The position numbers and the translations under genes were made by a program. Below the pieces are notes generated by a model. It made no database searches, was not told where the DNA came from, and saw nothing but the letters and a program-made list of their open reading frames with translations. Below are positions 14,959 to 31,670 of a stretch of 64,000 bases of DNA, piece by piece. Source of the DNA: Stigmatella aurantiaca DW4/3-1 (GTDB lineage Bacteria; Myxococcota; Myxococcia; Myxococcales; Myxococcaceae); contig NC_014623.1 of assembly GCF_000165485.1 (NCBI RefSeq), positions 9,566,893 to 9,630,892 of the forward strand, in the 5' to 3' direction. Every line of letters starts with the position of its first letter. The stretch's first letter is position 1.

Positions 14959-15858
14959 ATGAGCAACGCCAACACCCCACACAGAACACAACGCAAACAG
15001 ATTGTCCGCTCCATGCTCCTCGTGGCGCTGATGGTTTTTCTGACGGGCTTGTACCAGGGCATGGGCTGGCTGGTGTATTCCCTGCTCCATCAGGAGGGGG
15101 GCTGCTTGACCCCGGAGTGCGCGCGCGCGAGTGAATACGCGATCTGGACCGCCCAGCATGCCGGTTTCGCACGCACGATTCTGTTCTTGGTGATGGTGCT
15201 GCGCATTGGACAGAACAACCTCTCGCGCGCCGATTACCGGCTCCTCGTGGTGGCCTCCGGATTGACCGTCGTCGCCGACTACTTCCTCGTGTACCAGCGT
15301 GAAAACTTCATGGCCGGGCTCGGGGTGTTCGTGGGGGTCCACCTTCTCTACACCCTCCGCCACGCCCGGGGCTTCGCCGAATCACTGCAACCCGCCCGGC
15401 GGGCACGCACGTGGCGCCTGCTCTTGCTCTCCGCCGCCGGGGTGCTGCTCCTGAGCGCCGCGGCGCTCTGGTGGATCCACGCGAAGACACGCGAGCTGTC
15501 CCTGACACCTCCTGGAGCACCGGTGGTCCTCTATCTCGCCGTGCTGTCGCTCTCGTTGTGGATGGCCTGGGGGACCTTGATCCGCCAAGGCTTCACGCGC
15601 TTCCACGCCCGGCTCATCGCGGTGGGGATGACGAGCTTCTACTTGTGCGATCTCTGCGTGGGAATGTCTTCCCTCCTCAACGGCCTTGAGACGAAGCCAG
15701 GCAGCTTCTTCGACAACTGCGTCGGCTTCTTCTACTCACCCGCCCTGGTGCTGCTGGCGATGAGTGGCTACCGCACACCTCCCTCCCCCCCTGCTGTGGT
15801 CAAGCTCCGCCTCAACGAGACTCAGGCTGCCCCGCTCTCGCTGAACCCAGGCGTGTAG
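14959..15858 (+). CDS. YhhN-like membrane protein (lysoplasmalogenase family)
   Basis: A 299-residue polytopic membrane protein with about seven to eight hydrophobic helices. Two conserved YhhN/TMEM86-like stretches are visible: LTVVADYFLVYQ followed by AGLGVFVGVHLLYTLRHAR, and ARLIAVGMTSFYLCDLCVG, each with the membrane-embedded Asp. This family includes lysoplasmalogenases that hydrolyse the vinyl-ether of lysoplasmalogens; ether lipids are developmental signals in myxobacteria, so such a role is attractive but inferred. The start MSNANTPHRT follows an AAGGA motif by 5 bases; the frame is open 60 residues further upstream. The gene overlaps the convergent kinase gene by 37 bases. Confidence 0.6.
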   Translation: MSNANTPHRTQRKQIVRSMLLVALMVFLTGLYQGMGWLVYSLLHQEGGCLTPECARASEYAIWTAQHAGFARTILFLVMVLRIGQNNLSRADYRLLVVASGLTVVADYFLVYQRENFMAGLGVFVGVHLLYTLRHARGFAESLQPARRARTWRLLLLSAAGVLLLSAAALWWIHAKTRELSLTPPGAPVVLYLAVLSLSLWMAWGTLIRQGFTRFHARLIAVGMTSFYLCDLCVGMSSLLNGLETKPGSFFDNCVGFFYSPALVLLAMSGYRTPPSPPAVVKLRLNETQAAPLSLNPGV

Positions 15859-24990: not shown

Positions 24991-27900
24991 TTACCGGCCC
25001 ACGAGCGCCAGGAGTTGCGCGCCGTAGCGCTCGACCAGCTTCGGCCCCACGCCCTGAATGGCCATGAGCGCCTCCCGGTCCTCGGGCCTCGCGGCGGCGA
25101 TGGCCCCGAGCACCCGGTCCGTGAGGATGCGGAAGGCAGGGACCCGCCGCTTGCGCGCTTCGGCCAGCCGCCACGCCTTGAGCGCCTCCACCAGCGCCGG
25201 CGAAGGCTTCGGGAGTGGCATCGGCTGCCGCCTTCCGCCCCGCCGCACGCCAATGTCTTGCTCCTCGTCCCAGTCCTCCTCGGTGGCGGGGGGCGCGTCC
25301 ATCCCCTCCCACTCCCGGACGACGGAGAGCGCCTTCGAGGACCGTCCCGTCACGGCCCCCGCCCGCTCCCGGGTGCCGCCCCAGGGGACGGCCACCGGCC
25401 GCTGACGGCCTTCGGATGCACTGCCCGCCGAGTGGCCCACCGGCGGCCCCCGCGTGCCCGCGCGACGGGGTTTCTCCAGGCGCGCGCCGGCAGCCTTCCC
25501 CCGGGTGGCCCGCCGCTTCTTCGCGGATTTCGCCTCGAGCGGCATCGGCAGCATGACCAGGTCGGGTTCGATGACACGCGTGCGCTGGCCCTCCGGCGTG
25601 AGCGTCAGCCGTTGGAACGAGATGCTCTGTCCATCCTTCTCGAAGGAGTCCTCGCTCAGCCGGGTCAGCCCCGCGCGCACCATGCCGCCAATCAGGCGCT
25701 CGAACTCGCGGCGCGGCAGCGCCTCCCCGAAGAGTTCGCGGTGCAGGCGGCCCGTGGCCTGCCCATCCCGCTCGTGCAGCGCATCCAGGATGCGGCCCAG
25801 GGCCTGCAACTCGCGCTCCCCCGGCTCGGCGAAGCGCAAGGTGACACACGTCTCGGGCGCGCACACGTCACACAGCCCGCACGGCTTGCCCGAGTCCTGC
25901 ACGTCGCCGAAGTGGCTCACCAAGTGCCGCATCCGGCACCCCGAGGCCTCCGCGTAACGCCCCATCTGCTCCAGGTGGAGCATCTTGCGCTCACGCTGTG
26001 CCGTGTAAGGCGCGGGCCACTCCGGCCGTCCCCGGCGCACGTTCTCGTCCGGAGTCATCTCCAGCCCGCCGTGAATCCAGAGCTGCTCGAGGGCCTTGTC
26101 GAACACCTCGGGGTCCATGCGCACACGGGCCTGGAGGGCCTCCTTGGGCTCCAACCCGGCACCGGCCGCATGGAACAGCTTCGCCAGCATGGACGGCTCC
26201 GGGTAGTCCCGCTGGTGGAAGAACTCGTGCGTGCGCCGGTCCACGTACGAGTGCAGCAGCACCGCGCGAGAGGGTTTCCCATCCCGGCCCGCACGCCCCA
26301 GCTCCTGGTAATAGCCTTCCAGGCTCGCCGGCAGCGCCGCATGCACCACGGTGCGGACATCCGCCTTGTCGATGCCCATCCCAAAGGCAGTCGTGGCGAC
26401 AATAACTTCCAGCCGCCCTGACAGGAATGCCGACTGGACCCGGTCCCGGTCGGCCGGGGTCATCCCCGCGTGATACACGGCCGTAGGAACTTCCTCCGCC
26501 AGCCGCTCCGCGAGCTGCTCGGCGTGTTTGCGCGTGGAGGCGTAGACGATGGCAGGGCGGTTTTCAGGCTCGGCCAGCACGTCGCGGATGGCGTCGCCCC
26601 GCTGGCCAGGGTTCAGCTCGCGCACCTCGATGGCGATGTTGGTGCGGCGAAAGCCGTGGATGAAGGTGCGCGACGCCCCGCCCCGTGAGCCTCTCAGCCC
26701 CAGTTGCTGGACGATGTCACGCTGCACATCCGGCGTCGCCGTGGCGGTGAGCGCGACGACCGGCGAGGGACGCAGCAGGGGCAACCGCGCGCCCAGCAGC
26801 CGGTAGTCCGGCCGGAAGTCATGTCCCCACTGGGAGATGCAGTGCGCTTCGTCGATGGCGATGAGCGCGGGCGGGCGCCGCGCCAGCAACTCCACGAAGC
26901 CAGGCACTCCCAGGCGCTCGGGCGCGATGAAGAGAAAATCCAGCCGCCCTTCCAGGTAGTCCGTGCACACCTGGCGCGAGGCGGCCCGGTCCCGCCCCGA
27001 GTGGATGCGCTCCGCCGCGAACCCGAGCGACTGGAGCCGCGTCACCTGATCCTCCATCAAGGCGATGAGGGGGCTGACCACCAGCGTCGTCCCCGCCCGC
27101 GCCAGTCCTGGAAGCTGATAACAGAGCGACTTGCCCGCCCCCGTCGGCATCACCAGCAGCAGGTCCTCCCCCGCCGTGGCCGCCTTGCACACCTCTTCCT
27201 GGTACGGCCGGAAGTCCTCGAAGCCAAAGGCCTCCTTGAGGAGCTTCCGCAGCTCACCCGGGGGCGTGGGGGCGCGCGGGGTGCGTTCCACGCTGCGCTT
27301 CGAGGCCCCCTGCGGAGCCTCCACGCGCACACGCATGGCGGCGGGGCTGCTGGGGCTTGGGCTCGCCGGCCGGGGCGCTGAAAGCGGAGCCCTCGCGGCC
27401 ACGGACACGGCCGGGACGCTGGCCGGGGGCGCCCCGGAAGCAGGTGCCCCGCTCGGTGGGGGGGGCCTCGGGCCCTCTGCCCGGGGGGGCATGGGCTGCG
27501 CGGGCATCTTGCCCACCACCTCGATGACATAGGCCTCGATGCCCCGCAGGAAGGCTTGCAGGTCTCCCTGGCCTCGCTCGATGCGCTGGAGCCACGCCTC
27601 CCACTGCCCCGTCATCGCCGGCGTCTTCACGTCCGGGTGCACCACCTGGATCAGCCGGATGCCCTTCTCCGTGACCTCCAGGGATTTGCCCCGGCGTTGG
27701 AGGTACTCCCGCTCCAGCAGCACCTCGATGATGGCCGCGCGCGTGGCCGGGGTGCCCAGGCCTGTCTCCTTCATCGCGTCCGCCAGCTCCTTCTCGTCCA
27801 GCGTCCGCCCGGCGGTCTCCATCGCGGTGAGCAGCGACGCATCCGTGAGGCGCGGCGGCGGACGGGTGCGCTTCTTCACCGCCTCCACGTCCTCCACGCG

Positions 27901-29505
27901 CTGCTTCTGGCCCCGCGCCAGCACGGCGGGGAGATCCTGCGGCTCGTCCTCGGGCTCCTTGCCCTCGCCCTCCTCCTTCGGGCCCTTGCCCTCGCGGCCC
28001 TTCGGGGGCCTTTGCCCCCCGCCGATGTCCAGCACCTTCCAGCCCACGCGCACCACCTGCGTGCCCGAGCTGTGAAAGCGATCCACCCGGGGCGAACCCG
28101 GGGCGGGCCCCACGGAGCTCACCGCCGTCACCACCGTGGTGACGGCCCAGACATGCTCGTCATGCCACGCCGCGAGCAGCCGCCGGCACACCAGCTCATA
28201 GAGCCGCTTCTCATCCGGCGGCAGCCGCTCCCCTTCAGGGGAGGTGGCGGTGGGAATGATGGCGTGGTGATCCGTCACCTTCGCGTCGTCCACGAAGCGC
28301 CGGCCCAGGGGCTTCTCCCCCGTCCCGGGCGCCAGCAACGGCTCGTACGGCGCGCGGATGGCACGCACCACCTCGGGCAGCGTCTCCGCCACCGCGGAGG
28401 ACAGATGCCGGCTCGCCGTGCGCGGATAGCTCAGCAGCTTGTGTTTCTCATACAGGTTCTGCGCCAGCTCCAACGTCCGCTGCGCGCTGAAGCCATAGAG
28501 CCGGTTCGCGTGCCGCTGCAGCTCCGTCAAGTCATAGAGCAGCGGCGGCGCCATCCGCTTCGTCTCCGAGGTGAGCGACTCGATGACGGCCGCCCCCGAG
28601 CGGACCCGCGCCATCACCTCCCCCGCCTCCACCCCATCGGCCGGCAGGCGCCGGGCCTCGCGGGCCGTCTCCGCCGTGCGGGGCCCGCCCTTCGGCTCCG
28701 CCTCGCGGAACCACGTCCCCCGGTACTGCGTCCCCGCGGGCACCCCGGCCGCCTGGGGCGCGAAGGTGGCCACCACCTCCAGGTAGTCCTCCGGGACGAA
28801 GTCGCGGATGGCCAGCTCCCGCTCCACCAGCATCGCCAAGGTAGGCGTCTGCACCCGTCCCACCGACAGCGTCTCCCCACACGCCAGCGTGTAGAGGCGC
28901 GACAGGTTCATCCCCACCAGCCAGTCCGCCCGGCTGCGCCCCTTCGCCGCGTCCGCCAGCGCGTCGTACGCGCGGCCGTCCTTGAGCGTCCGGAAGCCCT
29001 CGCGAATGGCCCCCTCCGTCAGCGACGACACCCACAGCCGCTTCACCGGCTTGCGGCACCCCGCGGCCTCGTAGATGTAGCGAAAGATGAGCTCGCCTTC
29101 GCGCCCCGCGTCCGTGGCGCACACCACCCCACTCACCTCGGGCGCGTTCACCACCGCGCGCACCACCTCGAACTGGGTCCGTGTGTTCTCGGAAACCACC
29201 AAGGGCCACGTGCTGGGCAGCATGGGCAATTGCTCCCGGTGCCAGCGCTTCCACGCGGGGTGCATCTCGTGCGGCTGCGCCAGCCCCACCAGGTGCCCGA
29301 TGGCCCACGTCACCACGTAGCCGTTGCCCCGGAACCAGCCCTCCCCCCGCTGCGTGGCCCCCAGCGCCCGGGCGATGTCCCGCGCCACCGCGGGCTTCTC
29401 GGCCACCACGGCCAGCACGGACGAAGGCCCTCGGGGCGCCACGCCACCGCCTGCCTGCCGGGTCTTCTCCTGCTCGGGTGCTGTGCCCATCTGCTCCCAC
29501 CTCAT
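24991..29505 (-). CDS. Natural fusion of DNA topoisomerase III and RecQ helicase
   Basis: One uninterrupted 1,504-residue frame. Residues 28-665 are a type IA topoisomerase of the TopB class: TOPRIM with Glu in AEKPAV (37) and TDAGREGE (131-138), active-site Tyr360 in [12 protein letters not shown] (the usual Asp/Ser after RT is Ala here), and C-terminal [13 protein letters not shown] Pro/Ala/Ser-rich linker (666-745) follows. Residues 750-1260 are RecQ: Walker A MPTGAGKS (786-793), DEAH (885-888), motif [12 protein letters not shown] (1067-1076), and a RecQ-Ct zinc site with Cys1190, 1209, 1212 and 1215. A basic linker leads to an HRDC domain (about 1430-1504). Together these give the Sgs1/BLM-Top3 pair that dissolves double Holliday junctions, in one chain. 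The start at 29505 has GGAGG just upstream; an ATG 15 bases on (29490) is equally possible. Confidence 0.92.
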
Positions 29506-29973
29506 ACCTCCCCCTCCCCCGGCCCGCCTACCTGCCCTGTCACATCCCGCCGCGCGCGGCGAACCCCCTTCCTATCGCGGTGGGCCGACACCTCGCCCGC
29601 CTCCGCCGCCCCTTGCCCACAAGGCCGCCCGCCCTGCGGCCAGGAAGGCCTTCCACCCACCTGTGTGAAACCATTCACAGCCATTCAATCCCTCTCCTGT
29701 GAAACGCGTCACAAAAAAGCCCCTTCGGTGTGAAGGCTTTCACTGCCTCCGGCCCCTCGGGTGTGAAGCCACTCACAGGCTCCGGCCCCTCGGATGTGAA
29801 ACCTTTCACACCCCCTCAAGAGCGCTGTACACGGTGATGTTTTCATGCAACTGTTTGCATCAGCTTCCTGGGGCGGCGGCGCCATCGCCCGCCCTGGACC
29901 GCGCCTTCCGCCAGGGCGGTCAGGGGAGTGGTACCGCGCAGCCAACATGGTCTGTGCATTCAGGAGACGCGCA
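29506..29973. other. Divergent intergenic region with operator array
   Basis: The 468 bases between the divergent Top3-RecQ gene and the small gene at 29974. It holds five CRP-type palindromes (29664-29810), listed separately, placed about 160-170 bases from both start codons. No convincing coding frame or RNA gene is seen in the rest. Confidence 0.6.
29664..29810. promoter_or_regulatory. Array of five CRP-type operators
   Basis: Five 16-bp palindromes of the form TGTGA-N6-TCACA: 29664-29679, 29698-29713, 29729-29744 (last base T instead of A), 29762-29777 and 29795-29810. Four are perfect in the ten fixed positions and the first N is always A. Start-to-start spacings are 34, 31, 33 and 33 bases, close to three helical turns, so bound dimers would lie on one face of the DNA. 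A CRP/FNR-family regulator is the natural reader. The array lies midway between two divergent genes, so it may control either or both. Confidence 0.8.
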
Positions 29974-30366
29974 ATGCCGCAATCGCTTGAGCAGCACCGT
30001 TCGCAGGGGGGGAAGTTGCCAGGGGGGGTGTGCGAGCTGGTTCTGTTCGCGGACGAGGGCACGGGTGCCCCCGCGGCGAAGACGCGCTCCCGGATGTCAT
30101 GGGGGGGCAGTGAGCTGTCCATGGAAGAGACTGTCACGGCACCGGGGCTGGCTGCTTTCGGTGGGGAAAAGCGGTTGCAGCTCGCCGCCCTCGCGGCCTC
30201 GAGGGTGACGCTTTCGTTGCGCCAGGTGGTGGAGGGAAGAACGTGGCTCGCCTCGCTGCTGCGCAGCCCGGAGTCCCGTCAGGGGCCCGCGGCGCGCCGC
30301 CGGACCAGCCGCGTGCTCGCCCTTCACCCCACGCGGCTGGTGAACGTGCTGAACAAGGAGTGCTGA
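29974..30366 (+). CDS. Small protein of unknown function behind the operator array
   Basis: A 130-residue protein, MPQSLEQHRS to LVNVLNKEC, with no recognised domain, signal peptide or membrane helix. The C-terminal half is helical and basic (LAALAASRVTLSLRQVVEGR, RRRTSRVLALHPTRLV). The start was chosen because AGGAGA lies 7 bases upstream of this ATG; the frame is open back to 29845 but lacks a ribosome site there. A strong terminator follows at 30491. Its position 164 bases after the last CRP-type site suggests it is a target of that array. Confidence 0.6.
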   Translation: MPQSLEQHRSQGGKLPGGVCELVLFADEGTGAPAAKTRSRMSWGGSELSMEETVTAPGLAAFGGEKRLQLAALAASRVTLSLRQVVEGRTWLASLLRSPESRQGPAARRRTSRVLALHPTRLVNVLNKEC

Positions 30367-30490
30367 AATCCTCTCCAGGGGGGTGCCGGGGAATCCAAGG
30401 GCTCCGGTTCCCCTGGAGGAGGATGCAGTCCGCAACCTGGGTTGGATTCGGTCTCCTGAGGGGGTGAACGAACGCTGGCCCGGGTCGGTG

Positions 30491-30530
30491 AAGGGGATGC
30501 CTCTCAAGGGGCATCCCCTTTGCTTTTTTT
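30491..30530 (+). terminator. Strong Rho-independent terminator
   Basis: A perfect 11-bp stem, AAGGGGATGCC (30491-30501) with GGCATCCCCTT (30510-30520), an 8-base loop and then TGCTTTTTTT. It is oriented to end plus-strand transcription from the small gene at 29974 and abuts the stop codon of the convergent epimerase gene. Confidence 0.9.
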
Positions 30531-31670
30531 CTAGGGGCGGGCCGTGGGCGGTGTTCCGGTCTCCCCCTGCTGGTGCCAGGCGGCGAGCACCTCGCGCTCC
30601 CGCTCCGGGGGGAGGCCCGAGCGCAGCTTCGCCTGCCGCTCCGGGGGCAGCGTCCGGAACCACGCCAGCGTGTCCCGCACGGTCTCTTCCAGGGGGCGGA
30701 ACCCCAGCCCCTGGGCCCGGGCCCGGGCGTGGCTCACCCGGCTGATGCCCATGTCCGTGCTGGCGCGGGGTATCCACACGGGCATGTCCGACCAGGGGCT
30801 CACCTTCTGCGCCTCCAGGAAGGGGGAGGCTGCCCAGGTGAAGGTGGCGTTGCTCCCATGGGCCGCCTTGCACGTCTCCAGCAGCCCCCGCATGGACAGC
30901 GTCTCCGCCGGCCCCGTCGCGTTGAAGACGCCCATGGCCTGGTGTTCCACCAGGCCGATGAGGAAGGCCGCCAAATCCCTCACGTCAATGAATTGCACGG
31001 GGTCCTCGCCATCCCCCGGCGCCAGCACCTCGCCCCCCTGGGCCACGCGCACCGGCCAGTAGGTGAAGCGGTCGGTCGGGTCGTCCGGCCCCACGATGAG
31101 GCCCGGCCGGACGTTCGAGACGCGGCCCGGCAGGGCCGCCTCCGCGGCCTTCTCGCACAGGGCCTTGAGGGCGCCGTAGTGCTGGGACACATCCTCCGTC
31201 GTCTCGTCCGCCACGGTGGCCACGGGCGAGTCCTCGCCGATGCCGCCCTTGCTCGTGTCGCCGTAGACCGAGATGGAGGAAACGAACAGATAGTGGCCCA
31301 CATTGGGTGCGAGCAGCTCCGCGCTGGCCTTCACCACGCGCGGCACATACCCGGAGGTGTCGATGACGGCATCCCACTGCCGGCCCTCCAGGGCCTGGAG
31401 CTTGCCGTCGCGATCGCCCTGGAGCTTCTCCACCTGGGGGAAGAGCCCAGGCCGGGTCTTGCCCCGGTTGAAGAGGGTGAGGGTATGGCCCCGGGACAAG
31501 GCCCGCTCCACCAGCGCGGGCCCCAGGAAGGCCGTCCCTCCCAGAATGAGGATCTTCTTCTTCACGGGGGGAGACTCCCTTTCCGCGGTCTTCGTCGAAG
31601 CACAGCCCATCGCCCAGAGCGAGCCGAGCGCGGCCGCCCCCTTCATCAATCTTCTGCGGGTCAGACTCAT
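30531..31670 (-). CDS. NAD-dependent epimerase/dehydratase-like lipoprotein with Tat-type signal
   Basis: A 379-residue extended-SDR protein. The N-terminus MSLTRRRLMKGAAALGSLWAMGCAS combines a twin-arginine motif with a lipobox (MGC, Cys23), so it is probably exported folded with its cofactor and lipid-anchored. The Rossmann motif GGTAFLG (44-50), the SSISVYG strand and the YGALK catalytic pair (Tyr165, Lys169) are present. It resembles isoflavone-reductase/epimerase-type proteins. An extracytoplasmic NAD-dependent SDR is unusual. The substrate is unknown. The start was placed at the Tat motif; the upstream open frame has no homology and would overlap the transporter gene. Confidence 0.82.
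   Translation of the reverse strand: MSLTRRRLMKGAAALGSLWAMGCASTKTAERESPPVKKKILILGGTAFLGPALVERALSRGHTLTLFNRGKTRPGLFPQVEKLQGDRDGKLQALEGRQWDAVIDTSGYVPRVVKASAELLAPNVGHYLFVSSISVYGDTSKGGIGEDSPVATVADETTEDVSQHYGALKALCEKAAEAALPGRVSNVRPGLIVGPDDPTDRFTYWPVRVAQGGEVLAPGDGEDPVQFIDVRDLAAFLIGLVEHQAMGVFNATGPAETLSMRGLLETCKAAHGSNATFTWAASPFLEAQKVSPWSDMPVWIPRASTDMGISRVSHARARAQGLGFRPLEETVRDTLAWFRTLPPERQAKLRSGLPPEREREVLAAWHQQGETGTPPTARP

Follow-up and report, generated by a model that had tools for sequence, protein, structure and literature searches.

For M. tuberculosis CRP, 14 of 191 ChIP sites carry more than one copy of a motif that resembles the E. coli CRP motif, according to the portion of the study cited here (PMC4117774). 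A myxobacterial promoter with several CRP-family sites is known, namely that of mrpC in Myxococcus xanthus, which, as described in the cited part of PMC10701913, differs from the locus presented below in its motif (TGTYN8RAC), in the overlap of its sites with those of enhancer-binding proteins and in its negative autoregulation. We analyzed an intergenic region of Stigmatella aurantiaca in which five CRP-type palindromes follow one another between two divergent genes. Its position numbers refer to the window, that is, the whole 64-kb stretch of DNA that was analyzed, which covers bases 9566893-9630892 of a complete genome of 10,260,756 bases in a single contig.

The operator array and its surroundings

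The features of the region are the following:

24991-29505, minus strand: Top3-RecQ-HRDC fusion (topB-recQ), the divergent neighbour, with Topoisom_bac, Toprim, DEAD, Helicase_C, RecQ_Zn_bind and HRDC domains
29664-29679, no strand: operator 1, TGTGAAACCATTCACA, whose inner arm bases (GTGA, TCAC) do not vary among the four array genomes
29698-29713, no strand: operator 2, TGTGAAACGCGTCACA
29729-29744, no strand: operator 3, TGTGAAGGCTTTCACT, one mismatch
29762-29777, no strand: operator 4, TGTGAAGCCACTCACA
29795-29810, no strand: operator 5, TGTGAAACCTTTCACA, the closest to the small gene
29719-29817, plus strand: 33-nt unit made up of operator and spacer, repeated three times in tandem, from a repeat search
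29825-29868, plus strand: conserved block CTGTACAC..GYGATNNNTTCATGCAACTGTTTG..., common to array 2 (see below) and the orthologs
29974-30363, plus strand: 130-aa conserved protein, the likely target gene, with AGGAG seven bases before the start

The five TGTGA-N6-TCACA elements start at 29664, 29698, 29729, 29762 and 29795 and span 29664-29810. The first-pass annotation had described five palindromes at 31-34-base steps lying midway between divergent starts, and both statements are borne out: the start-to-start steps are 34, 31, 33 and 33 bp, four operators are perfect and operator 3 has a single mismatch (T as final base), and the array is separated from the Top3-RecQ start by 158 bp and from the 130-aa gene by 163 bp. 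The array probably grew via tandem duplication of a 31-34-bp unit, because the 33-nt units are alike, spacers included; two copies match the reference copy at 79% and 70% identity over operator and spacer, and a fourth (61%) is found at 29654-29686.

Between 29506 and 29974 there are five sites with at most one mismatch, whereas 3000 dinucleotide-shuffled versions of the intergenic region averaged 0.006 and never exceeded 1. With up to two mismatches, the whole window holds 9 sites against 12.45 expected, which is no excess; it is the clustering and exactness of the sites, not their number in the window, that set the array apart. The 10.26 Mb genome contains 12 exact matches to the motif (reversed control, 0), and sites with at most one mismatch number 79 versus 45 in the reversed control. 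Since this genome-wide excess is modest, and there is none in the window at two mismatches, isolated near-matches are to be distrusted, and most single ones are probably noise. Pairs of strict cores with starts 29-43 bp apart exist at only two loci of the genome, the present array (array 1) and array 2.

It had also been proposed that the spacing stacks regulator dimers on one side of the helix. Compared with random steps of 26-40 bp, the phase of the five sites gives R = 0.59 (P = 0.10) at 10.5 bp per turn, R = 0.75 (P = 0.02) at 10.6 and R = 0.90 (P = 0.003) at 11.0, and the best period over the range 10.0-11.2 is 10.87 bp (R 0.95, P = 0.014). The spacing is regular and near three turns, but a single helix face needs a twist slightly looser than 10.5 bp per turn. 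Stacking on one side is partly supported, for periods of about 10.6-11.0 bp; at 10.5 bp per turn, where some 170 degrees separate operator 1 from operator 5, it suits neighbouring sites better than the array as a whole.

Downstream of the array, the block at 29825-29868 is a possible core promoter or leader element, judging from its conservation. No sigma-70-like promoter was found near the array. Two terminator-like hairpins are present there versus 0.2 expected, one of which (29823-29836) overlaps the block. Three other explanations were discarded. A known structured RNA finds no match in Rfam at the gathering threshold over 29000-30600. An ATG at 29845 could start a longer protein, and its frame is open in the present genome (G000) and in G005; in G004 and G001 it does not lead into the small protein. 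Finally, a leader peptide was considered at array 2, where the differences between G000 and G001 in a 25-codon ORF are distributed 4/2/1 over first, second and third codon positions, which is not a coding pattern.

Orthologs of the small gene are found in all seven genomes of the genus (the present one and six relatives), and its product has no match in Pfam or NCBIfam. Differences by codon position amount to 3/1/15 against G005, 27/20/33 against G004 and 29/19/35 against G001. As for its divergent neighbour, topoisomerase III, RecQ helicase and HRDC are joined in one 1504-aa protein, and an ORF of similar size (1511 aa) is present in G006.

Re-use of the module and conservation within the genus

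Two further arrays are located in the same genome, the second of them within the window:

G000:C1:9462818-9462897: array 2, three sites with steps of 31 and 33, before a lipoprotein-like gene
29625-29886, plus strand: module homologous to array 2 (upstream flank, array and downstream flank), from blastn to L195
14687-14762, no strand: array 3, looser, with AATGAACCATTTCACA (14687), TGTGAACGCTTTCACA (14726) and GTGAAATCTTCAC (14750, one base short)

The lipoprotein-like product of the gene following array 2 contains PKD and Ig-like domains. In the blastn comparison of arrays 1 and 2, positions 29730-29886 are 78% identical over 157 bp and positions 29625-29680 are 79% identical over 56 bp. Array 2 is also present in G001 and was not found in G004 or G005. 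Array 3 lies upstream of a YhhN-family membrane protein (14959-15855), and among the six relatives a recognisable homolog of it, with three sites and steps of 33 and 44, is seen in G005 only. That a module with three sites is shared suggests re-use of the architecture and not of one exact number of sites. The element GYGATNNNTTSATGCAAC occurs exactly at three places of the genome, all beside arrays. As a promoter common to all three arrays it was rejected, given that the motif was defined from those very places and that the array 3 ortholog of G005 is devoid of it; it is retained as a putative shared element of arrays 1 and 2 only.

These copies bear on the identity of the regulated gene. The idea that the array controls topB-recQ, and with it DNA topology or repair, or else both divergent genes, draws on the position of the array midway between the two starts. 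However, the homology with array 2 ends 120 bp short of the topB-recQ start. Moreover, at arrays 2 and 3 the left gene runs in the same direction and ends before the array, with no divergent gene called, so that only a rightward gene start faces them. For both reasons the target is likely the small gene, not topB-recQ; we regard control of topB-recQ as quite unlikely, and the control of both divergent genes that was implied at first finds no support.

Among six relatives of the same genus, three (G001, G004 and G005) have all five sites, with at most one mismatch each, before the small gene. Over the four array genomes, every inner arm base is invariant (40 of 40 columns), against 34 of 67 columns in the spacers; the corresponding counts are 8 of 10 for the outer arm bases, 23 of 30 for the six core bases and 87 of 124 for the upstream flank. 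A rather unlikely reading of these data is that the array arose chiefly as a side effect of tandem duplication, in which one or two operators matter and the others are passengers. It would account for the 33-nt repeat family with its similar spacers, for the variation in array length between loci (5, 3 and about 3 sites) and for the three relatives that manage without the array, but it is at odds with the retention of each inner arm base in all five operators of four genomes while about half of the spacer columns vary. Unselected copies should have decayed like the spacers, and this points to selection on all operators. By this comparison of species, in which the operators are kept more than the spacers, the array behaves as a homotypic operator cluster under selection. 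After the duplication, the operator arms were probably maintained by selection and the spacers left to drift.

The other three relatives differ in their arrangement. In G002 and G006 topB-recQ adjoins the small gene, and no site with up to two mismatches exists in the 3.3 kb examined; in G003 the two genes are several kilobases apart, with at least one other gene between them and no array. As three of the six relatives have the array and three do not, while the small gene is present in all seven genomes, the array is an accessory carried by part of the genus and maintained by selection where present. The first-pass annotation had named conservation in relatives as a check, loss of the repeats beside both retained genes counting against it, and the outcome is divided: the array is kept in three relatives, and the other three retain both genes without it. 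Pair matches in G012, G013, G034 and G054 consist of one pair each, with no row of three, and the reversed control gave one match, in G005; we treat these single pairs as chance, though one site of G054 reads GTGAA-N4-TTCAC.

The array-less relatives (L188-L190, about 1350-1380) share a block GCAAGTGTTTGGCGCTG...GGAAAACTC before the small gene, the start of which has diverged in G003; this block is perhaps their own upstream control. Concerning 'GCAASTGTTTG', considered as a weak trace of the block at 29825-29868 in two array-less relatives, these show 12 of 14 identical positions (G002) and 11 of 14 (G006), a score that the best of 40 shuffles equals or surpasses, and in G003 the position concerned is not the best match. 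Its being common to the array-less species is suggestive only because the positions are collinear.

Candidate regulators

A search of the genome with HTH_Crp_2 returned ten matches, five of them above the Pfam cut-off. Two paralogs among the encoded proteins were retained:

8836658-8837335, minus strand: CRP-A, cNMP_binding plus HTH_Crp_2
1558961-1559620, minus strand: CRP-B, cNMP_binding plus HTH_Crp_2

They are 74% identical over 220 aa and carry the same recognition helix, LTRESTNKWL, so that the array genome encodes a compatible CRP-family recognition helix in two copies. Residues 4-224 of the 226 of CRP-A align to PDB entry 3d0s, which is probably of the CRP/FNR family (E 2.2e-34) and which we take to be M. 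tuberculosis CRP; in this alignment LTRESTNKWL lies over ASRETVNKAL. On the basis of the motif and of the helix of the paralogs, a CRP-family protein is the best-supported candidate reader of the sites, and to this extent their initial designation as CRP-type operators stands, though it is unproven.

The surroundings of the two genes contain the motif as well. In each of the seven genus genomes at least one site with at most one mismatch is located 99-176 bp upstream of crp-A, followed in six of them by a second site (up to two mismatches) exactly 23 bp further on. This upstream gap is shared with a divergent gene in six of the seven genomes; in G004 the upstream gene has the same direction. 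In four genomes of three other genera (G020, G013, G034 and G017) a 23-bp pair with at most one mismatch is found 0.2-1.3 kb beyond the 3' terminus of crp-A and may therefore serve a neighbour gene there; no such site was seen in the 1.5 kb upstream of crp-A in these four. Two more near-perfect pairs exactly 23 bp apart, at G000:C1:1243908-1243946 and 5448550-5448588, are included in the 41 sites listed for the first 5.57 Mb; if these sites were placed at random, at least two pairs within 60 bp would arise with P 5e-5. In all four genus genomes that possess crp-B, the gene beside it is preceded by an exact site.

CRP-A is found in all seven genus genomes, CRP-B in the four array genomes and in none of the three array-less ones (Fisher 0.029, ignoring phylogeny). 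This co-occurrence reads as one clade split and proves little; relatives of CRP-B without arrays are present in G013, G017 and G034, from two other genera. TGTGAA is the preferred form at the array sites, whereas most of the genus's sites at crp-A read TGTGAG or CGTGAR; different regulators for the two kinds of site are therefore possible. Several exact sites of this genome are located 30-260 bp before genes for lipoprotein-like or secreted-looking products (L280:3640, L281:3773, L194:2083 and L013:1500-1579), hinting at an envelope regulon.

Two other kinds of regulator have to be weighed. Rex is an NAD(H)-sensing repressor with the consensus TGTGAA-N4-TTCACA, given as TGTGAACNNNTTCACA in S. 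coelicolor and TTGTGAAWWWWTTCACAA in S. aureus in the cited parts of PMC5355995 and PMC2883068. The array sequence fits this Rex operator (ROP), and 26 of 27 collected array sites have A at position 6, a tally that leaves out the weak array 3 sites (14687 and 14750) and all sites of the G005 array 3 ortholog. When the sites are compared with the full operator TTGTGAA-N4-TTCACAA, however, the inner TGTGAA/TTCACA is mostly present and the outer T/A positions are mostly missing. Moreover, the N-terminal domain of Rex (PF06971) was found in none of the seven genus genomes, whereas the control search was positive in 7 of 14 known genomes, including B. subtilis; a search for PF06971 in 12 genomes gave a single match, in G034, below the cut-off. 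Rex operators were thus set aside, their sequence fitting yet no Rex domain being found in any genome of the genus, and we hold this reading to be very improbable.

A second alternative assigns the sites to MrpC, a developmental CRP-family protein, or to another of the many cNMP/HTH proteins of the genome. Indeed, the genome encodes a third strong HTH_Crp_2 protein (L175), presumably MrpC-like, and a search with CRP-A yields 21 matches in the genome, mostly cNMP domains. According to the excerpt of PMC10701913, MrpC has four or more sites at the promoter of mrpC in M. xanthus. The MrpC motif TGTYN8RAC, as stated in the cited part of PMC4320627, requires Y4 and R13, but all 27 collected array sites have G4 and C13. 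MrpC sites were rejected for this mismatch at both positions, and the alternative as a whole is unlikely.

Proposed mode of action and comparison with known systems

In our view it is reasonably probable that five putative CRP-family operators form a homotypic cluster upstream of a promoter, and that this cluster is read by CRP-A and/or CRP-B and controls the rightward small gene. According to this proposal, cyclic-nucleotide-bound CRP dimers would occupy all five sites, each bending the DNA, with neighbouring dimers about three turns apart on roughly the same face. Five sites would raise occupancy, and neighbours that touch or bend the DNA jointly would make the response steeper; the filled array would then alter transcription from a core promoter in or near 29825-29868 more steeply or strongly than a single site. 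The array thereby probably gives graded or cooperative control of the gene. Activation rather than repression is our guess, because the array precedes the conserved block without overlapping it.

A more elaborate proposal, improbable as it stands, would make the array a dose-counting switch read by the clade-restricted CRP-B, competing or cooperating with CRP-A. The module would have been gained with the use of CRP-B, copied to other envelope genes, and would make the response to a shallow cyclic-nucleotide signal steep and on/off in starvation or fruiting.

Provided that binding occurs as predicted, the array would serve as a natural titration series of CRP operators in a large-genome and probably multicellular myxobacterium, which lets one ask what extra operators buy in steepness, amplitude or noise; natural controls are provided by the three-site copy of the module in the same genome and by the sister species without the array. 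CRP-A/B would, with such binding, gain a motif and a first target. Among the open-access matches listed there was no paper on the binding site of CRP-A/B or on CRP arrays in Stigmatella.

Rows of similar sites were also seen outside the genus. A scan of the genome collection for triple arrays returned at least 119 stretches, many of them plain tandem repeats. Rows of GTGA-N6-TCAC with exact 32-bp steps are found at L052:6502-6675 (six copies) and at L088, L091, L093, L096 and L125; they belong to Bacteroidetes-like genomes and a Nitrosovibrio MAG, and the period recurs in unrelated groups. In Paenibacillus/Saccharibacillus (L044-L160, e.g. L046:5622-5704) a triple array precedes an oxidoreductase gene in nine of the ten loci looked at; the one such gene that was typed is Pyr_redox_2. 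L045 and L050 show a second array before a gene that resembles, as guessed from its sequence, a formate transporter. These Gram-positive arrays are possibly, at a guess, Rex or FNR operators. The initial statement that dense arrays are rare is correct for this genome, with its two loci, but triple arrays recur elsewhere, many of them in Paenibacillus among the matches listed.

Comparing the locus with described and recurrent systems, the E. coli and M. tuberculosis CRP operators have the same core motif and half-site spacing, and the difference resides in the five evenly spaced sites at one promoter. The triple arrays of Paenibacillus/Saccharibacillus likewise immediately precede a single gene in several species, with steps of 29-35 bp, and differ in being Gram-positive, in their AT-rich sites and in the gene concerned. 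The presence of several CRP-family sites per myxobacterial promoter was already known, what is new is an unusually long, evenly spaced row of CRP-type sites, and the array is unusual in the number of its sites, not in kind.
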